Source of the DNA: Acidocella sp.
Lineage (GTDB): Bacteria; Pseudomonadota; Alphaproteobacteria; Acetobacterales; Acetobacteraceae
Length of the DNA stretch: 64,000 bases
Direction of reading: 5' to 3'
Assembly (NCBI GenBank): GCA_031291755.1
Contig: JARLIK010000002.1
Span: 62,001 to 126,000 of the forward strand
Below the pieces are notes generated by a model. The model did not search any database. It saw only the letters and a program-made list of their open reading frames with translations, and was not told the origin of the DNA. The translations under genes were made by a program, and so were the position numbers. Of this stretch, positions 379 through 59,576 are shown piece by piece. How positions within the stretch are numbered: the stretch's first letter is position 1; each line of letters starts with the position of its first letter.

Positions 379-1725
379 ATGGCAACCGAAATTTTGATGC
401 CAGCACTTTCGCCCACCATGACGGAAGGCAAGCTTTCCAAATGGCTGAAGAAAGTTGGCGATGATGTGAAATCCGGCGATGTGATTGCCGAGATTGAGAC
501 CGATAAAGCGACGATGGAAGTTGAAGCCGTTGATGAGGGAAAAATCCTTAGCATTCTGGTGGAAGAAGGCACTGAAGGCGTGCCGGTGAATGCCGTGATC
601 GCCACATTGGGCGTTGAAGGCGAAACGGCCAAAGCCGCACCCGCAGCGGCACCGAAGGTTGAAGCTCCCAAAGCTGAACCAAAGGCCGCCGCACCGGCGC
701 AGGCCGTAAAAGCCGAGCATCATGAAATTGCTGAGCCATCCTGGGGCGAGACCAAACCCACCACCGTACGCGAAGCTTTGCGTGCAGGCATGAGCCTGGA
801 GATGCGCGCTGACCCCGATGTGTTCCTGATGGGTGAAGAAGTGGCGCAGTACCAGGGCGCTTATAAAATCAGTCAGGGGATGCTCGATGAATTTGGCCCC
901 CGCCGCGTGATCGATACGCCGATCACTGAACATGGCTTTACCGGCATGGCCGTGGGTGCGGCGATGAACGGGCTGAAGCCGATTGTTGAATTCATGACCT
1001 TCAACTTCGCCATGCAGGCGATTGACCAGATCATCAATTCCGCTGCCAAAACTCTGTATATGTCAGGCGGCCAGATGGGCTGCCCGATCGTGTTCCGTGG
1101 CCCCAATGGTGCAGCATCGCGCGTCGGTGCCCAGCATAGCCAGTGCTTTGCGTCCTGGTACGCCCATTGCCCTGGTTTGAAGGTGGTGGCCCCGTGGTCT
1201 GCCGCGGATGCCAAGGGCTTGATGCGCGCGGCCATCCGCGACCCGAACCCGGTGATTTTTCTGGAAAATGAAATTCTTTATGGCCAGACCTTCGATTGTC
1301 CGGTTTCCGATGATTTCATCCTGCCCATCGGCAAGGCGAAAGTTGAGCGCGTTGGCTCGGATGTGACGATCGTTGCGTTCTCCATCATGGTGGATGTGGC
1401 GCTGAAGGCGGCCGAGATTTTGGCCGGGCAGGGGATCAGCGCCGAGGTGATCAATTTGCGCACCATCCGGCCTTTGGATGTGGCGACAATTGTGGAATCG
1501 GTGAAAAAAACCAACCGCGTGGTGAGCGTGGAAGAGGGCTGGCCCTTCGCAGGGATCGGTTCAGAGATTTGCATGACCGTCACTGAGCATTGCTTCGACT
1601 GGCTGGATGCACCGCCGGTGCGGGTGGCGGGGCTGGACGTACCGATGCCGTATGCGGCGAATCTCGAAAAACTGGCGCTGCCGCAACCGAATTGGGTTGT
1701 GGATGCGGTCAAGAAAATTATCTGA
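379..1725 (+). CDS. pdhB: Pyruvate dehydrogenase E1 beta subunit with N-terminal lipoyl domain
   Basis: Beta subunit of the E1 decarboxylase, 448 residues. Residues 1-80 form a biotinyl/lipoyl domain with the lipoylation motif [11 protein letters not shown] Pro/Ala/Lys-rich linker (about 85-120) follows, then the transketolase-like E1-beta body with [20 protein letters not shown] and [16 protein letters not shown]. Plain E1-beta is about 325 residues; the extra lipoyl domain is typical of many alphaproteobacteria. The lipoyl domain is strikingly similar to that of the next gene (pdhC), suggesting a duplicated module. It sits between pdhA and pdhC, as expected for one operon. Confidence 0.96.
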
Positions 1726-55176: not shown

Positions 55177-55929
55177 ATGTCCTATTGGGGTAAGGTAATC
55201 GGCGGCGTGGCAGGCTTTGCCATGGCCGGGCCGTGGGGGGCGCTGTTTGGTGCCTCGCTGGGCCATGCGGTTGATAATGGCGCGTTGCCGAACTTCAACG
55301 GCCGCGCACTGCCGTTCGATTCAGCGCGGCTGGCCGCCATGCTGGGCCGGCGCGAGCAGGTGTTTGCCATCAGCGTTACCACCCTGGCCGCCAAGCTCGC
55401 CAAATGCGACGGCCCGGTCAGCCGCGCCGAGATTGACGCCTTCCGCGCCAGCTTCCGAATCCCTGACCAGAACGTGCGCGAAATTGGCCTGCTGTTCGAC
55501 CAGGCCCGCGATTCCCCTGACGGCTATGAATCCCACGCCCGCCAGCTTGGCCTGGCCTTCGCCGACCATCGCAGCATCCTCGAGCAGGTGCTGGCCGGTC
55601 TGTACCAAATTGCCAGGGCGGATGGCCCGGTAAACGCTGCCGAGTCCATCTTCCTGGGCCGGGTGGCTTACGAATTTGGTTTGGACAATGCCGCCGCCAA
55701 CCGCGCCAACTTCGGCACCGCGGCGAGCAACCCCTACGAGGTGCTGGGCATCAACCGCGCCGCAACCAACGACGAGGTGCGCACCCGCTGGAAAACCCTG
55801 GTCCGCGAACATCACCCGGACGGTCTGGCCTCCAAAGGCGTGCCACCCGAGATGATTAAGGCCGCCACCGACCGCATCGCCAAAATCAACGCCGCCTATG
55901 ATGTCATCAAGCGCGAGCGCAAACTTTGA
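55177..55929 (+). CDS. DjlA-like co-chaperone with TerB and J domains
   Basis: A 250-residue protein. A Gly-rich hydrophobic start (MSYWGKVIGGVAGFAMAGPWGALFGASLGHAVD) resembles the DjlA membrane or dimerisation element. A TerB-like helical domain occupies about 60-165, and a C-terminal J domain reads NPYEVLGINRAATNDEVRTRWKTLVREHHPDGLASKGVPPEM with the HPD tripeptide. It would stimulate DnaK ATPase. The ATG at 55177 follows GAGGGCGA. The ampD TTG overlaps its stop. Confidence 0.9.
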   Translation: MSYWGKVIGGVAGFAMAGPWGALFGASLGHAVDNGALPNFNGRALPFDSARLAAMLGRREQVFAISVTTLAAKLAKCDGPVSRAEIDAFRASFRIPDQNVREIGLLFDQARDSPDGYESHARQLGLAFADHRSILEQVLAGLYQIARADGPVNAAESIFLGRVAYEFGLDNAAANRANFGTAASNPYEVLGINRAATNDEVRTRWKTLVREHHPDGLASKGVPPEMIKAATDRIAKINAAYDVIKRERKL

Positions 55930-56585
55930 TTTTTTCTCCCTCGCCGAATTTTGATGCCCGGCCGGAGGGGGCGCCGATTGATCATTTGGTGCTGCACTAC
56001 ACTGGCATGCTGAGTGCAAAAGCCGCCATTGACCGCTTGCGCGACCCCGCCGCCAAAGTATCCGCGCATTATGTGGTGGACGAGGACGGCACGGTTTACG
56101 CACTGGTGGACGAGGACAAACGCGCCTGGCACGCCGGGGTGAGTTATTGGCGCGGTGTTAAGCAGCTTAACGACCGCTCAATTGGTATCGAAATCGTCAA
56201 CCCCGGCCACGAATGGGGCTACTGCGCCTTCCCCGAAGCGCAGATGCTGGCGCTGCGCGATTTGTGTTTGGGCATTCTCTCCCGCCACCCGATCCCCGCC
56301 CGCAATGTGGTGGGCCACTCTGACATCGCCCCTGACCGTAAGCAGGACCCTGGGGAATTGTTTGATTGGCAATGGCTGGCCGCGCAGGGGGTGGGGTTTT
56401 GGACCGATGCGTTCGGAGAGCCAGGCGATTTGATGCAGGATTTGGCGGCGATTGGGTATGATGTGAGCTTGCCGGAGGCCGCTGTGATCACGGCGTTTCA
56501 ACGACGGTTTTTGCCGGGGTGGCTGAGTGGGGTGGGGGATGAGGTGACGCGGAAGAGGGTGGTGGGGGTTTTGAAGAGGCTATAA
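55926..56585 (+). CDS. N-acetylmuramoyl-L-alanine amidase (AmpD/Amidase_2 family)
   Basis: Zinc amidase recycling cell-wall anhydromuropeptides or splitting peptidoglycan. It has 219 residues. The zinc ligands appear in LVLHYTGML (His) and NVVGHSDIAPDRKQDPGELFDW (His, Asp). Other AmpD features are SAHYVVDEDGTVYALVDEDKRAWHAGVSYW and GIEIVNPGHEWGY. It starts with TTG at 55926 in a TTGA overlap with the upstream stop; the first in-frame ATG is too deep. There is no signal peptide, fitting cytoplasmic AmpD. Confidence 0.88.
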   Translation: MIFSPSPNFDARPEGAPIDHLVLHYTGMLSAKAAIDRLRDPAAKVSAHYVVDEDGTVYALVDEDKRAWHAGVSYWRGVKQLNDRSIGIEIVNPGHEWGYCAFPEAQMLALRDLCLGILSRHPIPARNVVGHSDIAPDRKQDPGELFDWQWLAAQGVGFWTDAFGEPGDLMQDLAAIGYDVSLPEAAVITAFQRRFLPGWLSGVGDEVTRKRVVGVLKRL

Positions 56586-56605
56586 AACGAGATAGAGATA
56601 AGCAT

Positions 56606-57655
56606 TCAAAAAATTTTCAATGTCTTTTTCAACACTCCAGACTGCTCTTCATCAATCAACGGCGCGACCCATTCTTCTAGTTCTTTGAGGGAATAAAATT
56701 TAGGCATTGGTCGTTCACCCCACGGGTCTTGTTGCAAATTTGCCCAGGCAAGTGATTCACAGGATCGCCTAGGGTGGGACATAAGTGCGCTTGTACTGAG
56801 GTCTGAGTTTACGCCAAAAAAACTTTCGTCTTGGATAAAATTTGACCAGGAGTTCATTATTTCTTTGGGATCTTTAAGGTCGATAAGAGCTATGTGAGCG
56901 ATCCATTTGCCTGCATTTTGTTTCCAAGCGGAGAGCAATAGCGACTTTGCTTCAACATCTGAAATTGGAGCACTATAACCAAAAATAGTAAGGAAATAGC
57001 ATTTAGAAATAAATTCTTGAGAGGCCCTCCATTGTTCAGAAATAAACGGATTAGCATTATAGTCTTTGTTGTCTACGGGGAACAGTAATGGCGATGGCTC
57101 CATATAGTGGCCATTGTAAGGTCCATCGGATAAAAAGCCTACAGATTTTTGTTTCAGATCATATCCCACATCAATATTTCCATGTAGAAAAAATAACTGT
57201 GGTAAGACTTTTCCTAGGTGTCTCCACCTTTTATATGCTTGTACGAGCAGTGGATCCCAATTGAAGGTGATTATTGCATCCTTTTGTCTCAGCGATAAAA
57301 TTAAGTAATCATACAATGTAGGAGATTTAGAAATTTGTATTTTAGAAAAATAAGAACCAATCTCAGCATTTAAATTTTGAATTATATCATTTCTATTTTG
57401 TTTAATTGCTTCACTGTAAATAAGTTCAAAATTATTTTCTGAAAAATTCAGTTCTTTTATAATGTTTTTTAAATTCAGAGTTTCAATGAAGTCATTCATC
57501 AAAGGTAATTTTTGATGAAATTTGTCTCCATCTGGACAACAAGCACGACTAGCGCCGGCGCCAAGTATCACGACATGAGGTGAGTGATTATGGTTTGTTT
57601 TAATGTCCAGATTTGGCATTTGTAAACTAGTAAATCGTGGTTTTTGTTGCTTCAT
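56606..57655 (-). CDS. SIR2-like domain protein (AT-rich accessory gene)
   Basis: A 349-residue protein with weak but consistent SIR2/NAD-binding features: HVVILGAGASRACCPDG (GAGAS at 32-36), ITFNWD (N132, D134), FFLHGNI (H158) and LTIFGYSAPISD (225-233). These correspond to GAGxS, TTNYD, HG and GYS blocks of SIR2-like domains used as NADases in defence proteins. No second domain or zinc ribbon is visible; the last 100 residues are unassigned. The base composition is strongly AT-rich compared with its neighbours, so it was probably acquired. The ATG at 57655 is used; a TTG lies further upstream. No partner gene is adjacent. Confidence 0.7.
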   Translation of the reverse strand: MKQQKPRFTSLQMPNLDIKTNHNHSPHVVILGAGASRACCPDGDKFHQKLPLMNDFIETLNLKNIIKELNFSENNFELIYSEAIKQNRNDIIQNLNAEIGSYFSKIQISKSPTLYDYLILSLRQKDAIITFNWDPLLVQAYKRWRHLGKVLPQLFFLHGNIDVGYDLKQKSVGFLSDGPYNGHYMEPSPLLFPVDNKDYNANPFISEQWRASQEFISKCYFLTIFGYSAPISDVEAKSLLLSAWKQNAGKWIAHIALIDLKDPKEIMNSWSNFIQDESFFGVNSDLSTSALMSHPRRSCESLAWANLQQDPWGERPMPKFYSLKELEEWVAPLIDEEQSGVLKKTLKIF

Positions 57656-57672
57656 AATTGATCTCTGCAAGC

Positions 57673-57756
57673 GTAGGGTGGGTGAGCGCAGCGCTACCCA
57701 CCATTGTTTATGGTTTCAACGCACACGGTGGGTTACGCTTCGCTCACCCACCCTAC
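57673..57756. repeat. Imperfect palindromic repeat element (GTAGGGTGGGTGAGCG type)
   Basis: GTAGGGTGGGTGAGCG at 57673-57688 (then CAGCG) is matched by its complement CGCTCACCCACCCTAC at 57741-57756 (preceded by CGCTT). Inner CTACCCACCA / GGTGGGTTACG also pair. The element would fold into one long hairpin. It resembles dispersed noncoding palindromes of proteobacterial genomes and lies just upstream of the SIR2-like gene. Confidence 0.75.
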
Positions 57757-57766
57757 AGGCCCATCC

Positions 57767-57859
57767 CCGTCATTGCGAGCGCAGCGAAGCAATCTATCTT
57801 TTACGAAACGGCCACCAGAGATGGATTGCCGCGGCCGCTGTGCGGCCCCGCAATGACGG
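57767..57859. repeat. Imperfect palindromic repeat element (CGTCATTGCGAGCG type)
   Basis: CCGTCATTGCG at 57767-57777 pairs with CGCAATGACGG at 57849-57859. Inside it, GAAGCAATCTATC and GATGGATTGCC are partial complements. This is the CGTCATTGCGAGC...GAAGCAATC family of intergenic repeats common across proteobacteria. It ends 2 nt before the stop of the small minus-strand gene at 57862 and may also serve as its terminator. Confidence 0.75.
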
Positions 57860-57861
57860 CA

Positions 57862-58050
57862 TTAATCTCTGCGCTTGCGCAGCAGCCGAACCAGTGCCGC
57901 GCCGCCGCCGACCGCGATGAACGCCGGAATCCCCGAGGCCAGCATCGGGGCCGGGGCGGCGGGTGGTGGATCATCTATGAATGCAAACGCCGGGGCGATC
58001 GCGAGCAAGCCCCACATCAACAAGGCTGCCGTCATGCCAAGCGTCTTCAT
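57862..58050 (-). CDS. Tiny secreted protein with PEP-CTERM-like sorting tail
   Basis: A 62-residue protein. An N-terminal signal peptide (about 1-23, cleaved after AFA) is followed by a 10-residue Pro-rich mature stretch (FIDDPPPAAP). A C-terminal tripartite tail then follows: PAPMLASG at about 33-40, a hydrophobic glycine-rich helix (41-54) and a basic end RLLRKRRD. This layout matches PEP-CTERM-like exosortase substrates. AGGAG lies 8 nt before the ATG at 58050. The gene is divergent from the exosortase-like gene (109 nt between starts), which suggests a dedicated enzyme-substrate pair. Its length is below the usual gene-calling cut-off. Confidence 0.7.
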   Translation of the reverse strand: MKTLGMTAALLMWGLLAIAPAFAFIDDPPPAAPAPMLASGIPAFIAVGGGAALVRLLRKRRD

Positions 58051-58159
58051 CGGTGCTGCTCCTGCTCTGCGCGATACCATAGCGTAGTCTTTGAATGAGA
58101 ATTTGCGCAACATAAAGTAACGATACCCGAAACCGGCACCATGCTCTACCATCAAACCC

Positions 58160-59002
58160 ATGAAACAAATATGTCCCGCGCAGGTTAGCCGGGTTGATGC
58201 AGGCCGCGCGGGCCTCATAGGCCTGGCAGTGGTGTTCATGGGCTGCGGTGCCGCTTGGCTGGTAGTGTTTGCCCGCAATTCCAGTCTGCTGCTGTCCGAT
58301 ACGCTGCTGGACGATTTTTTCCGCCTCGGCGCCTTCAACATTGCGGCGTGGCTGATGATCTTCGCGCGTGCCGGCCACATCATCTCGCCCCATCCCGCCG
58401 CTACCCGCATTATCGTCGCGGCGATGGTTGCGGCATTGGCGGCGTTGCTGGCTGTACCCTCCGTGCTGGGTGTGGGGTTGGCCATGGCGCTGCTAGGCGG
58501 TGGCATTCTGTTGCAACCAAAGCTTTTAACGCCTGCCCGCGAATCCGGCTGGCTCCTGCTGGCTTTGGCGGCCTGCGCTGCTACGCTGTCTCTCTGTGCT
58601 TTCAGCCTGCCGGTAGCTGATTGGGATGCCCAAGCTGCCGCCTGGCTTAGCCGGCTGGCGGGGTTTCATGCCACCGCCCAGGGGCCATTGGCCGGGGTTG
58701 GCGCGTTCCGTGTCATCATCCTCACCGGTTGCTCGTCGATAACGCCGCTGGCCAGCGTGTGGCTCGCCTACCTGGTTATCCTGCTGTTCATGCGCGTCAC
58801 CCCTGGCCGGGCCGATATCCCCTGGCTGCTGGCTTCCTTCATTACCAGCATTGCCCTCACCGAAATCCGCCTCTCGCTGATGCTGCCCAGCGCCGCCGCC
58901 TGGAATTGGTGGCATAATGGCCCTGGCGTCACGCTGTATGAGCTCACCGCCCTGGCCGCCGCAGCTTTGTTCCCGCTGCTGGCCTCCCGCCGCGCCGCTT
59001 GA
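58160..59002 (+). CDS. Exosortase-like membrane transpeptidase
   Basis: A 280-residue protein with about seven membrane segments. The C-terminal half has the exosortase arrangement: WLSRLAGFHATAQGPLAGVG before the catalytic Cys C191 in ILTGCSSITPLAS, then Arg R237 in LTEIRLSLM, then His H252 in NWWHNGPGVTLYELTALA. In known exosortases these correspond to ACSG, NxxR and HxxxG motifs; here Ser replaces the usual glycine after CS, and Thr-Glu replaces Asn. Family membership is inferred from this pattern. The divergent neighbour encodes a plausible substrate. It ends 33 nt before the RNase P RNA. It has no EPS cluster beside it, unlike EpsH. Confidence 0.72.
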   Translation: MKQICPAQVSRVDAGRAGLIGLAVVFMGCGAAWLVVFARNSSLLLSDTLLDDFFRLGAFNIAAWLMIFARAGHIISPHPAATRIIVAAMVAALAALLAVPSVLGVGLAMALLGGGILLQPKLLTPARESGWLLLALAACAATLSLCAFSLPVADWDAQAAAWLSRLAGFHATAQGPLAGVGAFRVIILTGCSSITPLASVWLAYLVILLFMRVTPGRADIPWLLASFITSIALTEIRLSLMLPSAAAWNWWHNGPGVTLYELTALAAAALFPLLASRRAA

Positions 59003-59034
59003 CCCGTTCCGCCAACAAGCGCACGGAGCAGCCT

Positions 59035-59426
59035 TCCAGACGGTTGGACGGCCGCTGCCAAAGGTAACTTTGGTGGAGGAAAGTCCGGGCTCCACGGAAA
59101 TACGGTGCCGGCTAACAGCCGGCGGGGGTGACCCCAGGGACAGTGCCACAGAAAACAAACCTCCTCCCAGGCTTGCCTGAAGGGAAGGGTGAAACGGTGC
59201 GGTAAGAGCGCACCGCGGCCTTGGTAACAAGGCTGGCAGGGTAAACCCCACCGGGAGCAAGACCGAATAGGGGCGGCCGGCTTTGTGTGAAAGCATGGAA
59301 GCGGGAGTATTTTCGATCCGCCGCCCGGGTTGGTCGCGCGAGGCGTGTTGCAAAACACGTCCCAGAGGAATGGCCGTCCAGCGCCCGCGAGGGTGTGGAC
59401 AGAACCCGGCTTACAGGCCGTCTGGA
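59035..59426 (+). ncRNA. rnpB: RNase P RNA (class A)
   Basis: Catalytic RNA that matures tRNA 5' ends. The conserved 5' element GGAGGAAAGTCCGGGCTCC and the later GGTAAACCCC, GGAGCAAGACCGAATAG, AGAGGAATGGCCGTC and GACAGAACCCGGCTTACAG elements appear in the correct order. The ends pair as P1: CCAGACGG at 59036-59043 with CCGTCTGG at 59418-59425, which sets the limits at about 392 nt. Several short frames read through it are not genes. Confidence 0.96.
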
Positions 59427-59576
59427 TATTTTCTTTCGATGTTTTATTTTTGTTCCGCGTGAAACGAAAGAACAAAACAGAAACAAACGATTCAGAAACC
59501 TCTTAGAGATTCGCACGCCATTTTTAAACGAATCGCAGGCGTTTTGAACCGATTTTCCCCCGATTCTCTTTGACGG

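Follow-up and report, generated by a model that had tools for sequence, protein, structure and literature searches.

In the window, that is, the whole 64,000-nucleotide stretch of Acidocella DNA that was analysed, two divergent genes are separated by 109 nt. One encodes a polytopic membrane protein of 280 residues and the other a protein of 62 residues (MKTLGMTAALLMWGLLAIAPAFA-FIDDPPPAAPAPMLASGIPAFIAVGGGAALVRLLRKRRD). The genome to which the window belongs (G000) has 2.59 Mb and is 83.67% complete. The positions of the open reading frames, the divergent gap, residues C191, R237 and H252, and a tail of the form PAPMLASG-helix-RLLRKRRD were all found as described in an earlier reading of the letters alone (the sequence-only reading). 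The features are as follows.

55926..56585, plus strand: ampD-like N-acetylmuramoyl-L-alanine amidase gene, left border of the insertion site (PF01510, 130.7 bits)
57862..58050, minus strand: small partner or substrate gene, 62 residues (open reading frame, SD-like AGGAG, dN/dS, homologue by the enzyme gene in 6/6 loci)
57982..58050, minus strand: predicted Sec signal peptide, residues 1-23, with AFA end (by inspection of the letters; the AxA columns do not vary in the six-homologue alignment)
57946..57981, minus strand: short Pro-rich stretch, residues 24-35 (FIDDPPPAAPAP), the sole part between both predicted cleavage regions
57865..57960, minus strand: tripartite C-terminal sorting tail, residues 31-62, made of AAPAP-M-L-A-S-G-IPAF, a hydrophobic helix and RLLRKRRD (conserved tail alignment)
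58051..58159, no strand: divergent intergenic region of 109 nt between the start codons of the enzyme gene and the small gene
58160..59002, plus strand: exosortase-like membrane protein gene, 280 residues (open reading frame; hhalign of the family against 17 PF09721 exosortases, E = 3.3e-6)
58730-58732, 58868-58870, 58913-58915 and 58925-58927, plus strand: catalytic-type codons of the enzyme for C191, R237, H252 and G256, respectively (residues checked)
59036..59429, plus strand: rnpB, the gene for class A RNase P RNA, bordering the insertion site on the right (RF00010, 322 bits)

Between the amidase gene, which we take to be ampD, and the pair lies a gene for a protein of about 349 residues (56606-57670, minus strand), without match in Pfam or NCBIfam; a weak PADLOC match was to PDC-S25 (E = 0.0029). 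This gene is missing between ampD and the pair at locus L001, and another open reading frame is found at that place in L003. Right after the small gene, positions 57660-57860 contain repeat-like, partly palindromic stretches (GGTGGGTGAGCGCAGCG..., CGTCATTGCGAGCGCAGCGAAGCAATC), recognized by eye only. Other neighbouring open reading frames are presumably mraZ, rsmH, ftsL and ftsI. As the sequence-only reading had it, no glycan-export cluster was recognized among the immediate neighbours of the pair (the ampD-like amidase gene, the 349-residue gene, rnpB, and the mraZ/rsmH/ftsL/ftsI-like frames).

The ATG of the small gene is preceded by an SD-like AGGAG, which is also present in L001 and L002. 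The encoded protein consists of a signal peptide, a short Pro-rich part and a PAPMLASG-helix-RKRR tail; about 12 residues, instead of the ten counted previously, separate the probable AFA cleavage site from the end of the PAP motif. No match was found in Pfam, nor in NCBIfam up to E = 10, model TIGR04200 included. At all six window-type loci, the small gene product (62-137 residues) ends in APAPxL[AG][AS]G[IL]PA[FL] followed by a hydrophobic helix and then by basic residues, with PAP rather than PEP as the motif in 6/6 cases. Conservation is highest in the tail. An AxA signal-peptidase-like site is found in all six homologues, and the spacer between AxA and APAP, from 8 residues in the window protein to 70, is Pro- or Gly-rich and not conserved.

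The enzyme shows six hydrophobic segments in a 19-residue hydropathy scan. As segment 74-125 is long enough to hold two spans, the seven spans previously proposed are a possible count, compatible with the scan. An AlphaFold2 model computed with the window sequence and three Acidocella homologues had a mean pLDDT of 39.8, too low for use, and a search of the PDB returned no sequence relative for profile A5 at E values up to 1, nor for profile A6 at values up to 0.1.

Taken alone, the window protein matched the exosortase model PF09721 with 14.2 bits (E = 0.028), under the cut-off of 25.7 bits, and had no NCBIfam match up to E = 10. The homologues L001 and L002 scored 16.9 and 21.4 bits, both under the cut-off, and the L008 and L009 enzymes had no Pfam match. 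The sole window-type member above the cut-off was L003, an Acidocella homologue that is 54% identical to the window enzyme and scored 31.6 bits. For profile comparisons, a reference set of 17 PF09721 proteins was taken from 142 genomes of the same class, L067 and L072 being left out of the 19 matches. Using hhalign, the profile of window-type sequences (A1) aligned with this set with a probability of 87.8 and E = 3.3e-6, the Cys, Arg and His motifs being aligned; a wider profile of ten sequences (A5) gave a probability of 94.2 and E = 1.1e-7. For A1 and A5 alike, the real score was matched neither by the reversed profile nor in any of 100 column shuffles or 100 block shuffles, and masking the four catalytic-motif columns left E values of 2.9e-4 and 4.7e-5, respectively. 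The exosortase likeness claimed from sequence, which the search with the window protein alone did not confirm, was borne out by L003 and by the profile-profile comparison. That the large protein is unrelated to exosortases and resembles them by chance would fit its own Pfam E value, its lack of NCBIfam match, and a weak Pfam match to DUF2232 in one distant relative (L032, E = 0.065), but this is made extremely improbable by the score of L003, by the hhalign scores with their shuffle controls, and by the tripartite-tail gene adjoining the enzyme gene. Judged by these profile similarities, the window enzyme is a distant homologue of exosortases and archaeosortases.

By curated cut-offs, no named exosortase, cyanoexosortase or archaeosortase family includes the window enzyme. 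The NCBIfam matches of its relatives, all below cut-off, were mostly to exosortase or archaeosortase models (XrtH, XrtV, XrtD, CrtA, CrtC, ArtE, XrtR, XrtK and XrtX), with a few weak ones to unrelated models (cellulose synthase, TmcC and an acetyltransferase). L001, L003, L008 and L009 were under every NCBIfam cut-off, and L001, L123 and L125 had no NCBIfam match whatever. A tree of 42 proteins places the six window-type enzymes together in one group (support 94/94) and sets all 25 divergent enzymes apart from the 17 PF09721 sequences (100/99); the program flagged two branches as long, and seven rows as odd in composition.

The catalytic-type residues of the window enzyme occur in the same order as, and are aligned with, the Cys, Arg and His-x3-Gly motifs of exosortases. 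In the 2006 description of the PEP-CTERM/EpsH system, these motifs are named C-x-G, N-x-x-R and H-x3-G (PMC1569441). Their six defined residues are invariant in 17/17 PF09721 sequences. In the window enzyme, H-x3-G is intact (H252-G256), whereas C-S-S and T-E-I-R stand in place of the canonical C-x-G and N-x-x-R; throughout the window group, Ser replaces the Gly of the former and Thr the Asn of the latter. This Asn is kept in the four more distant Acetobacteraceae sequences of A5. The CSS motif had been considered unusual, and possible uniqueness was given up once each of the five same-class relatives read (L123-L127) proved to have C-x-S. One of these, L124, from another family of the class, has a tiny divergent open reading frame ending in PSPAPELSMGL-helix-RLNKRK (1022-1228, minus strand, of the reverse-complemented locus) beside its CSS-type exosortase relative.

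The occurrence of the enzyme was examined with increasingly wide queries. With the single protein, it was found in 4/38 genomes of the genus and 4/299 of the family, the window's genome included; three Acidocella records hold a relative, and their contigs recur among the genus genomes searched. A six-sequence profile retrieved it from at least 8 of 397 family genomes and at least 6 of 357 class genomes, again counting the window's. The ten-sequence profile A5 gave at least 20 matches in at least 19 of 394 family genomes, from at least 12 of 102 genera, that of the window included.

Two of the four Acidocella enzymes are truncated. About 40 N-terminal residues are missing from L002, with an in-frame TAA upstream, and L003 has lost its last helix, its frame running into the start of rnpB (L003:8686-8774). 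The latter overlap implies either an altered start of the RNase P RNA or a misassembled MAG. The truncation of two of four genes hints either at dispensability, with real erosion, or at MAG error. Together with the changed C-x-G and N-x-x-R residues and the sporadic distribution in the genus, it could be taken to mean that the pair is the decaying relic of an exosortase system, now functionless in the window genome. Several observations make this highly unlikely. Both the window copy and that of L001 are full length, and every one of the ten A5 sequences, the two truncated ones among them, keeps C191, R237, H252 and G256. The dN/dS ratio (Nei-Gojobori) is low in the 11 measurable comparisons out of 12, with values of 0.17-0.33 for the enzyme in 6/6 Acidocella pairs and 0.10-0.33 for the small gene in 5/6 pairs, dS being saturated in the remaining one. 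Both genes are under purifying selection. A chance open reading frame was likewise dismissed, on the conservation of the pair and on dN/dS.

The conservation of the pair, which the sequence-only reading had proposed to test, was confirmed: the small gene lies divergent beside the enzyme gene in 6/6 window-type loci, four from Acidocella and two from other genera. More broadly, of 20 Acetobacteraceae loci encoding exosortase-like proteins, 18 have a tail-bearing gene next to the one for the enzyme, a count that combines the loci passing an automatic filter (signal peptide and basic tail), the window-type genes recognized by their pattern, and five loci accepted after relaxed reading. The filter alone detected an adjacent tail gene in 11/20 loci; its two other matches (L090 and L091) proved to be something else than tail genes. 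Apart from the window-type loci, 12 of the other 14 have a directly adjoining tail gene (7 by the filter and 5 by relaxed reading), and none was detected in L086 and L091. As controls, the filter was passed by 3/28 rnpB loci, none with a PxP tail, by 1/17 other loci, which was a true PEP-CTERM cluster, and by 3/19 PF09721 loci, one of the three matches being inside the enzyme gene. In the 299-genome search, matches of the tail profile with E between 0.001 and 0.1 were mostly short and inside long frames, and those with loci were examined; L032 and L036 were kept, and no others counted, because both end as tails beside enzymes. At L032 (1786-2997), the exosortase-like protein, encoded after a 90-residue tail protein, is extended at its C-terminus by about 140 residues, which we suppose may be a fused EpsI-like part.

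In the window genome, the tail profile gave one strong match (E = 3.5e-19), the next best having E = 0.219, and the idea of further substrates elsewhere in this genome (83.67% complete) was given up. The search for other proteins with such a tail had been suggested by the sequence-only reading. The other five window-type genomes likewise had one strong match each. On the enzyme side, A5 has one match in the window genome, PF09721 has none, although this model also misses the window's own enzyme, and no second exosortase was found by profiles in the genomes carrying the pair. An orphan protein with a PAPLLAAGVPAF tail was seen in another genome (G186; L054:8626-8874), with a weaker match (E = 1.2e-8). 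It adjoins a gene that we presume to be phnM-like, and no window-type enzyme was found in G186.

The strict one-to-one linkage would also suit a complex. The small protein could be a regulatory or partner microprotein with two helices, the N-terminus staying as a membrane anchor and the tail binding the enzyme, which would then act on something else. The mature part of only about 12 residues in the window protein, which leaves little cargo, and the highest conservation in the tail agree with such an arrangement. It is nevertheless distinctly unlikely, considering the AxA signal-peptidase-like site present in six out of six homologues and the middle part, whose length ranges from 12 to 74 residues and whose low-complexity sequences are unrelated to one another, as expected for a cargo rather than a subunit. 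Moreover, in related loci the position of the small gene is occupied by secreted-type proteins of about 270-290 residues with similar tails. One of these, the neighbour of the L080 (= L020) enzyme, matches the curated Npun_F0296-type exosortase-dependent surface protein model NF050191 with 85.5 bits (cut-off 29).

The genomic site of the pair was compared across the genus. RNase P RNA was matched 35 times, in 33 of the 38 genomes, and 30 loci were examined. In 24 of these, a gap of about 12-86 nt separates the end of the ampD-like frame from rnpB. The six others comprise the pair-bearing loci of G000 and G029, two loci with a wider gap (627 nt in G026 and 749 nt in G028), that of G016 without ampD within 1.5 kb, and that of G035 at a contig end. 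The order ampD-pair-rnpB is also found in the pair-bearing genomes G006 and G037 (loci L003 and L001). Since ampD and rnpB adjoin in most genomes and enclose the pair in four, the pair has therefore been gained or lost as a unit at this junction, in either direction. The junction (55926-59036 in the window) is usually short, but with the pair present in four genomes, the wider gaps in G026 and G028 and the rearrangement in G016, it may be an insertion hot spot. A mobile-element origin was also considered and set aside, there being no match among 72,556 plasmid records.

The pair was compared to known sorting systems. Like PEP-CTERM/EpsH (PF09721, TIGR02602, XrtA), it has a polytopic enzyme with Cys, Arg and His-x3-Gly in the same order, and a partner with a signal peptide and a tripartite motif-helix-basic tail. 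It differs by C-x-S, T-x-x-R and PAPxLxxG[IL]PA instead of C-x-G, N-x-x-R and PEP, by an enzyme under the curated cut-offs, and by the lack of recognized exopolysaccharide genes among its immediate neighbours. It also has one target, whereas a median of eight is given in Haft et al. 2006 (PMC1569441). The target of exosortase J is little more than a signal peptide and a sorting tail, like the very short window protein, and is described by the NCBIfam model TIGR04200 of 57 positions (PExPT-CTERM protein, target of XrtJ); unlike that system, neither the enzyme nor the small protein of the window has any NCBIfam match up to E = 10. The L080 enzyme belongs to the same broad divergent branch as that of the window, and its neighbour's tail contains PAPLP and RRRR, but the cargo is a secreted-type protein of 271 residues, the two genes are on the same strand and N-x-x-R is intact.

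Archaeosortase A (ArtA), as presented in PMC9263693, requires Cys173, Arg214 and Arg253, and attaches a lipid after processing of a tripartite tail. The Cys-Arg transpeptidase logic and the tripartite tail of this PGF-CTERM system are shared with the window pair, the lipid attachment after cleavage being that of ArtA, which further differs by being archaeal, by its main substrate, the S-layer glycoprotein, and by its third critical residue, an Arg rather than a His. Dedicated systems with one enzyme and one target are an accepted concept, according to the paper on the rhombosortase/GlyGly-CTERM pairs (PMC3237569), which also have adjacent genes; unlike the window enzyme, rhombosortase is an unrelated rhomboid serine protease.

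In the titles and abstracts searched, nothing was found on this enzyme/small-gene pair. The exosortases CrtB and XrtF are treated in biofilm and motility papers (PMC12188702, PMC10936215), and in the sole paper found with both "exosortase" and "Acidocella", the former appears in the reference list only (PMC8776678).

The novelty of the pair is considered moderate. It is an uncatalogued system, but dedicated systems, C-x-S motifs and CTERM-like proteins of 54-56 residues exist elsewhere. The concept of the dedicated pair is a known one, as the sequence-only reading had it, and in this Acetobacteraceae branch such pairs are common (18/20 loci). The minimal substrate is less unusual than first proposed, given those proteins of 54-56 residues and the 57 positions of TIGR04200, and the notion of the smallest substrate known was abandoned in view of L046, L071 and L073. 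At L046 (1366-2013, G125 contig 4), three tandem genes, of 54-66 residues as first called, encode a signal peptide followed by VPEPAS[LF]ALLAIGAGGVxLAxLR; the 54-residue protein, the one scanned, is over the PEP-CTERM cut-off, and the cargo is even shorter than that of the window protein. At L071, a gene for a 55-residue protein with a VPEIS tail (2743-2910; VPEID-CTERM, sub-threshold, E = 0.017) lies about 0.5 kb from, and divergent to, an exosortase E-type gene (L071:1501-2232), as another tiny divergent pair. A CTERM-like protein of 56 residues is found near a PF09721 exosortase in L073.

As relatives carry both genes side by side, the pair probably constitutes a very small surface-anchoring system, of the dedicated exosortase type as far as can be judged from the two sequences, in which one enzyme serves one very small substrate. 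The 62-residue protein would be exported by Sec and its signal peptide cut after AFA. The C-terminal helix and the RKRR cluster would retain this protein in the inner membrane, the PAP-x-L-A-S-G motif lying at the periplasmic face. Cys191, aided by Arg237 and His252, would attack near this motif, and the helix-RKRR remnant would be released by the enzyme. The remaining Pro-rich peptide, predicted to have about 12-18 residues in Acidocella, and 41 and 74 residues in the two other genera, would be passed to a membrane or envelope acceptor, for instance a lipid or a glycan. No acceptor gene was recognized adjoining the pair. The cassette would be gained or lost whole at the ampD-rnpB junction.

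To our knowledge, the chemistry of bacterial exosortases, whether cleavage alone or cleavage and transfer, and to which acceptor, is still mostly inferred. The tail might instead simply be cut by proteolysis, freeing a short signal- or pheromone-like Pro-rich peptide to the periplasm or the medium without transfer to an acceptor. As this shares all steps but the last with the dedicated system, the likelihoods of the two overlap. Simple proteolysis would account for the very short product, and for the lack of recognized glycan or lipid biosynthesis genes among the neighbours. It is judged fairly unlikely, because the peptide sequence varies between species, which is unexpected for a peptide signal, and no receptor or exporter gene was recognized by the pair. 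The attachment of a lipid after processing by the related ArtA (PMC9263693) also speaks for transfer.

In its most specific form, the dedicated system would be a stand-alone peptide-conjugation cassette, in which a Cys exosortase of the C-x-S/T-x-x-R type moves a Pro-rich peptide of 12-18 residues to a membrane lipid or an envelope polymer, and which is mobile via the ampD-rnpB site. This is possible but fairly unlikely. Such a cassette would generate a peptidolipid or a peptide-decorated polymer rather than an anchored protein, and would move between strains.

For identifying an exosortase product by mass spectrometry, a natural substrate of 62 residues served by one cognate enzyme is about as simple a case as can be had. 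For finding which tail residues an exosortase reads, the 20 Acetobacteraceae loci, 18 of which have an adjacent tail gene, provide a ready series. Sister enzymes of this series share tail types, with FGWATL in L021 and L083, and LPxAGIPTA in L036 and L084.
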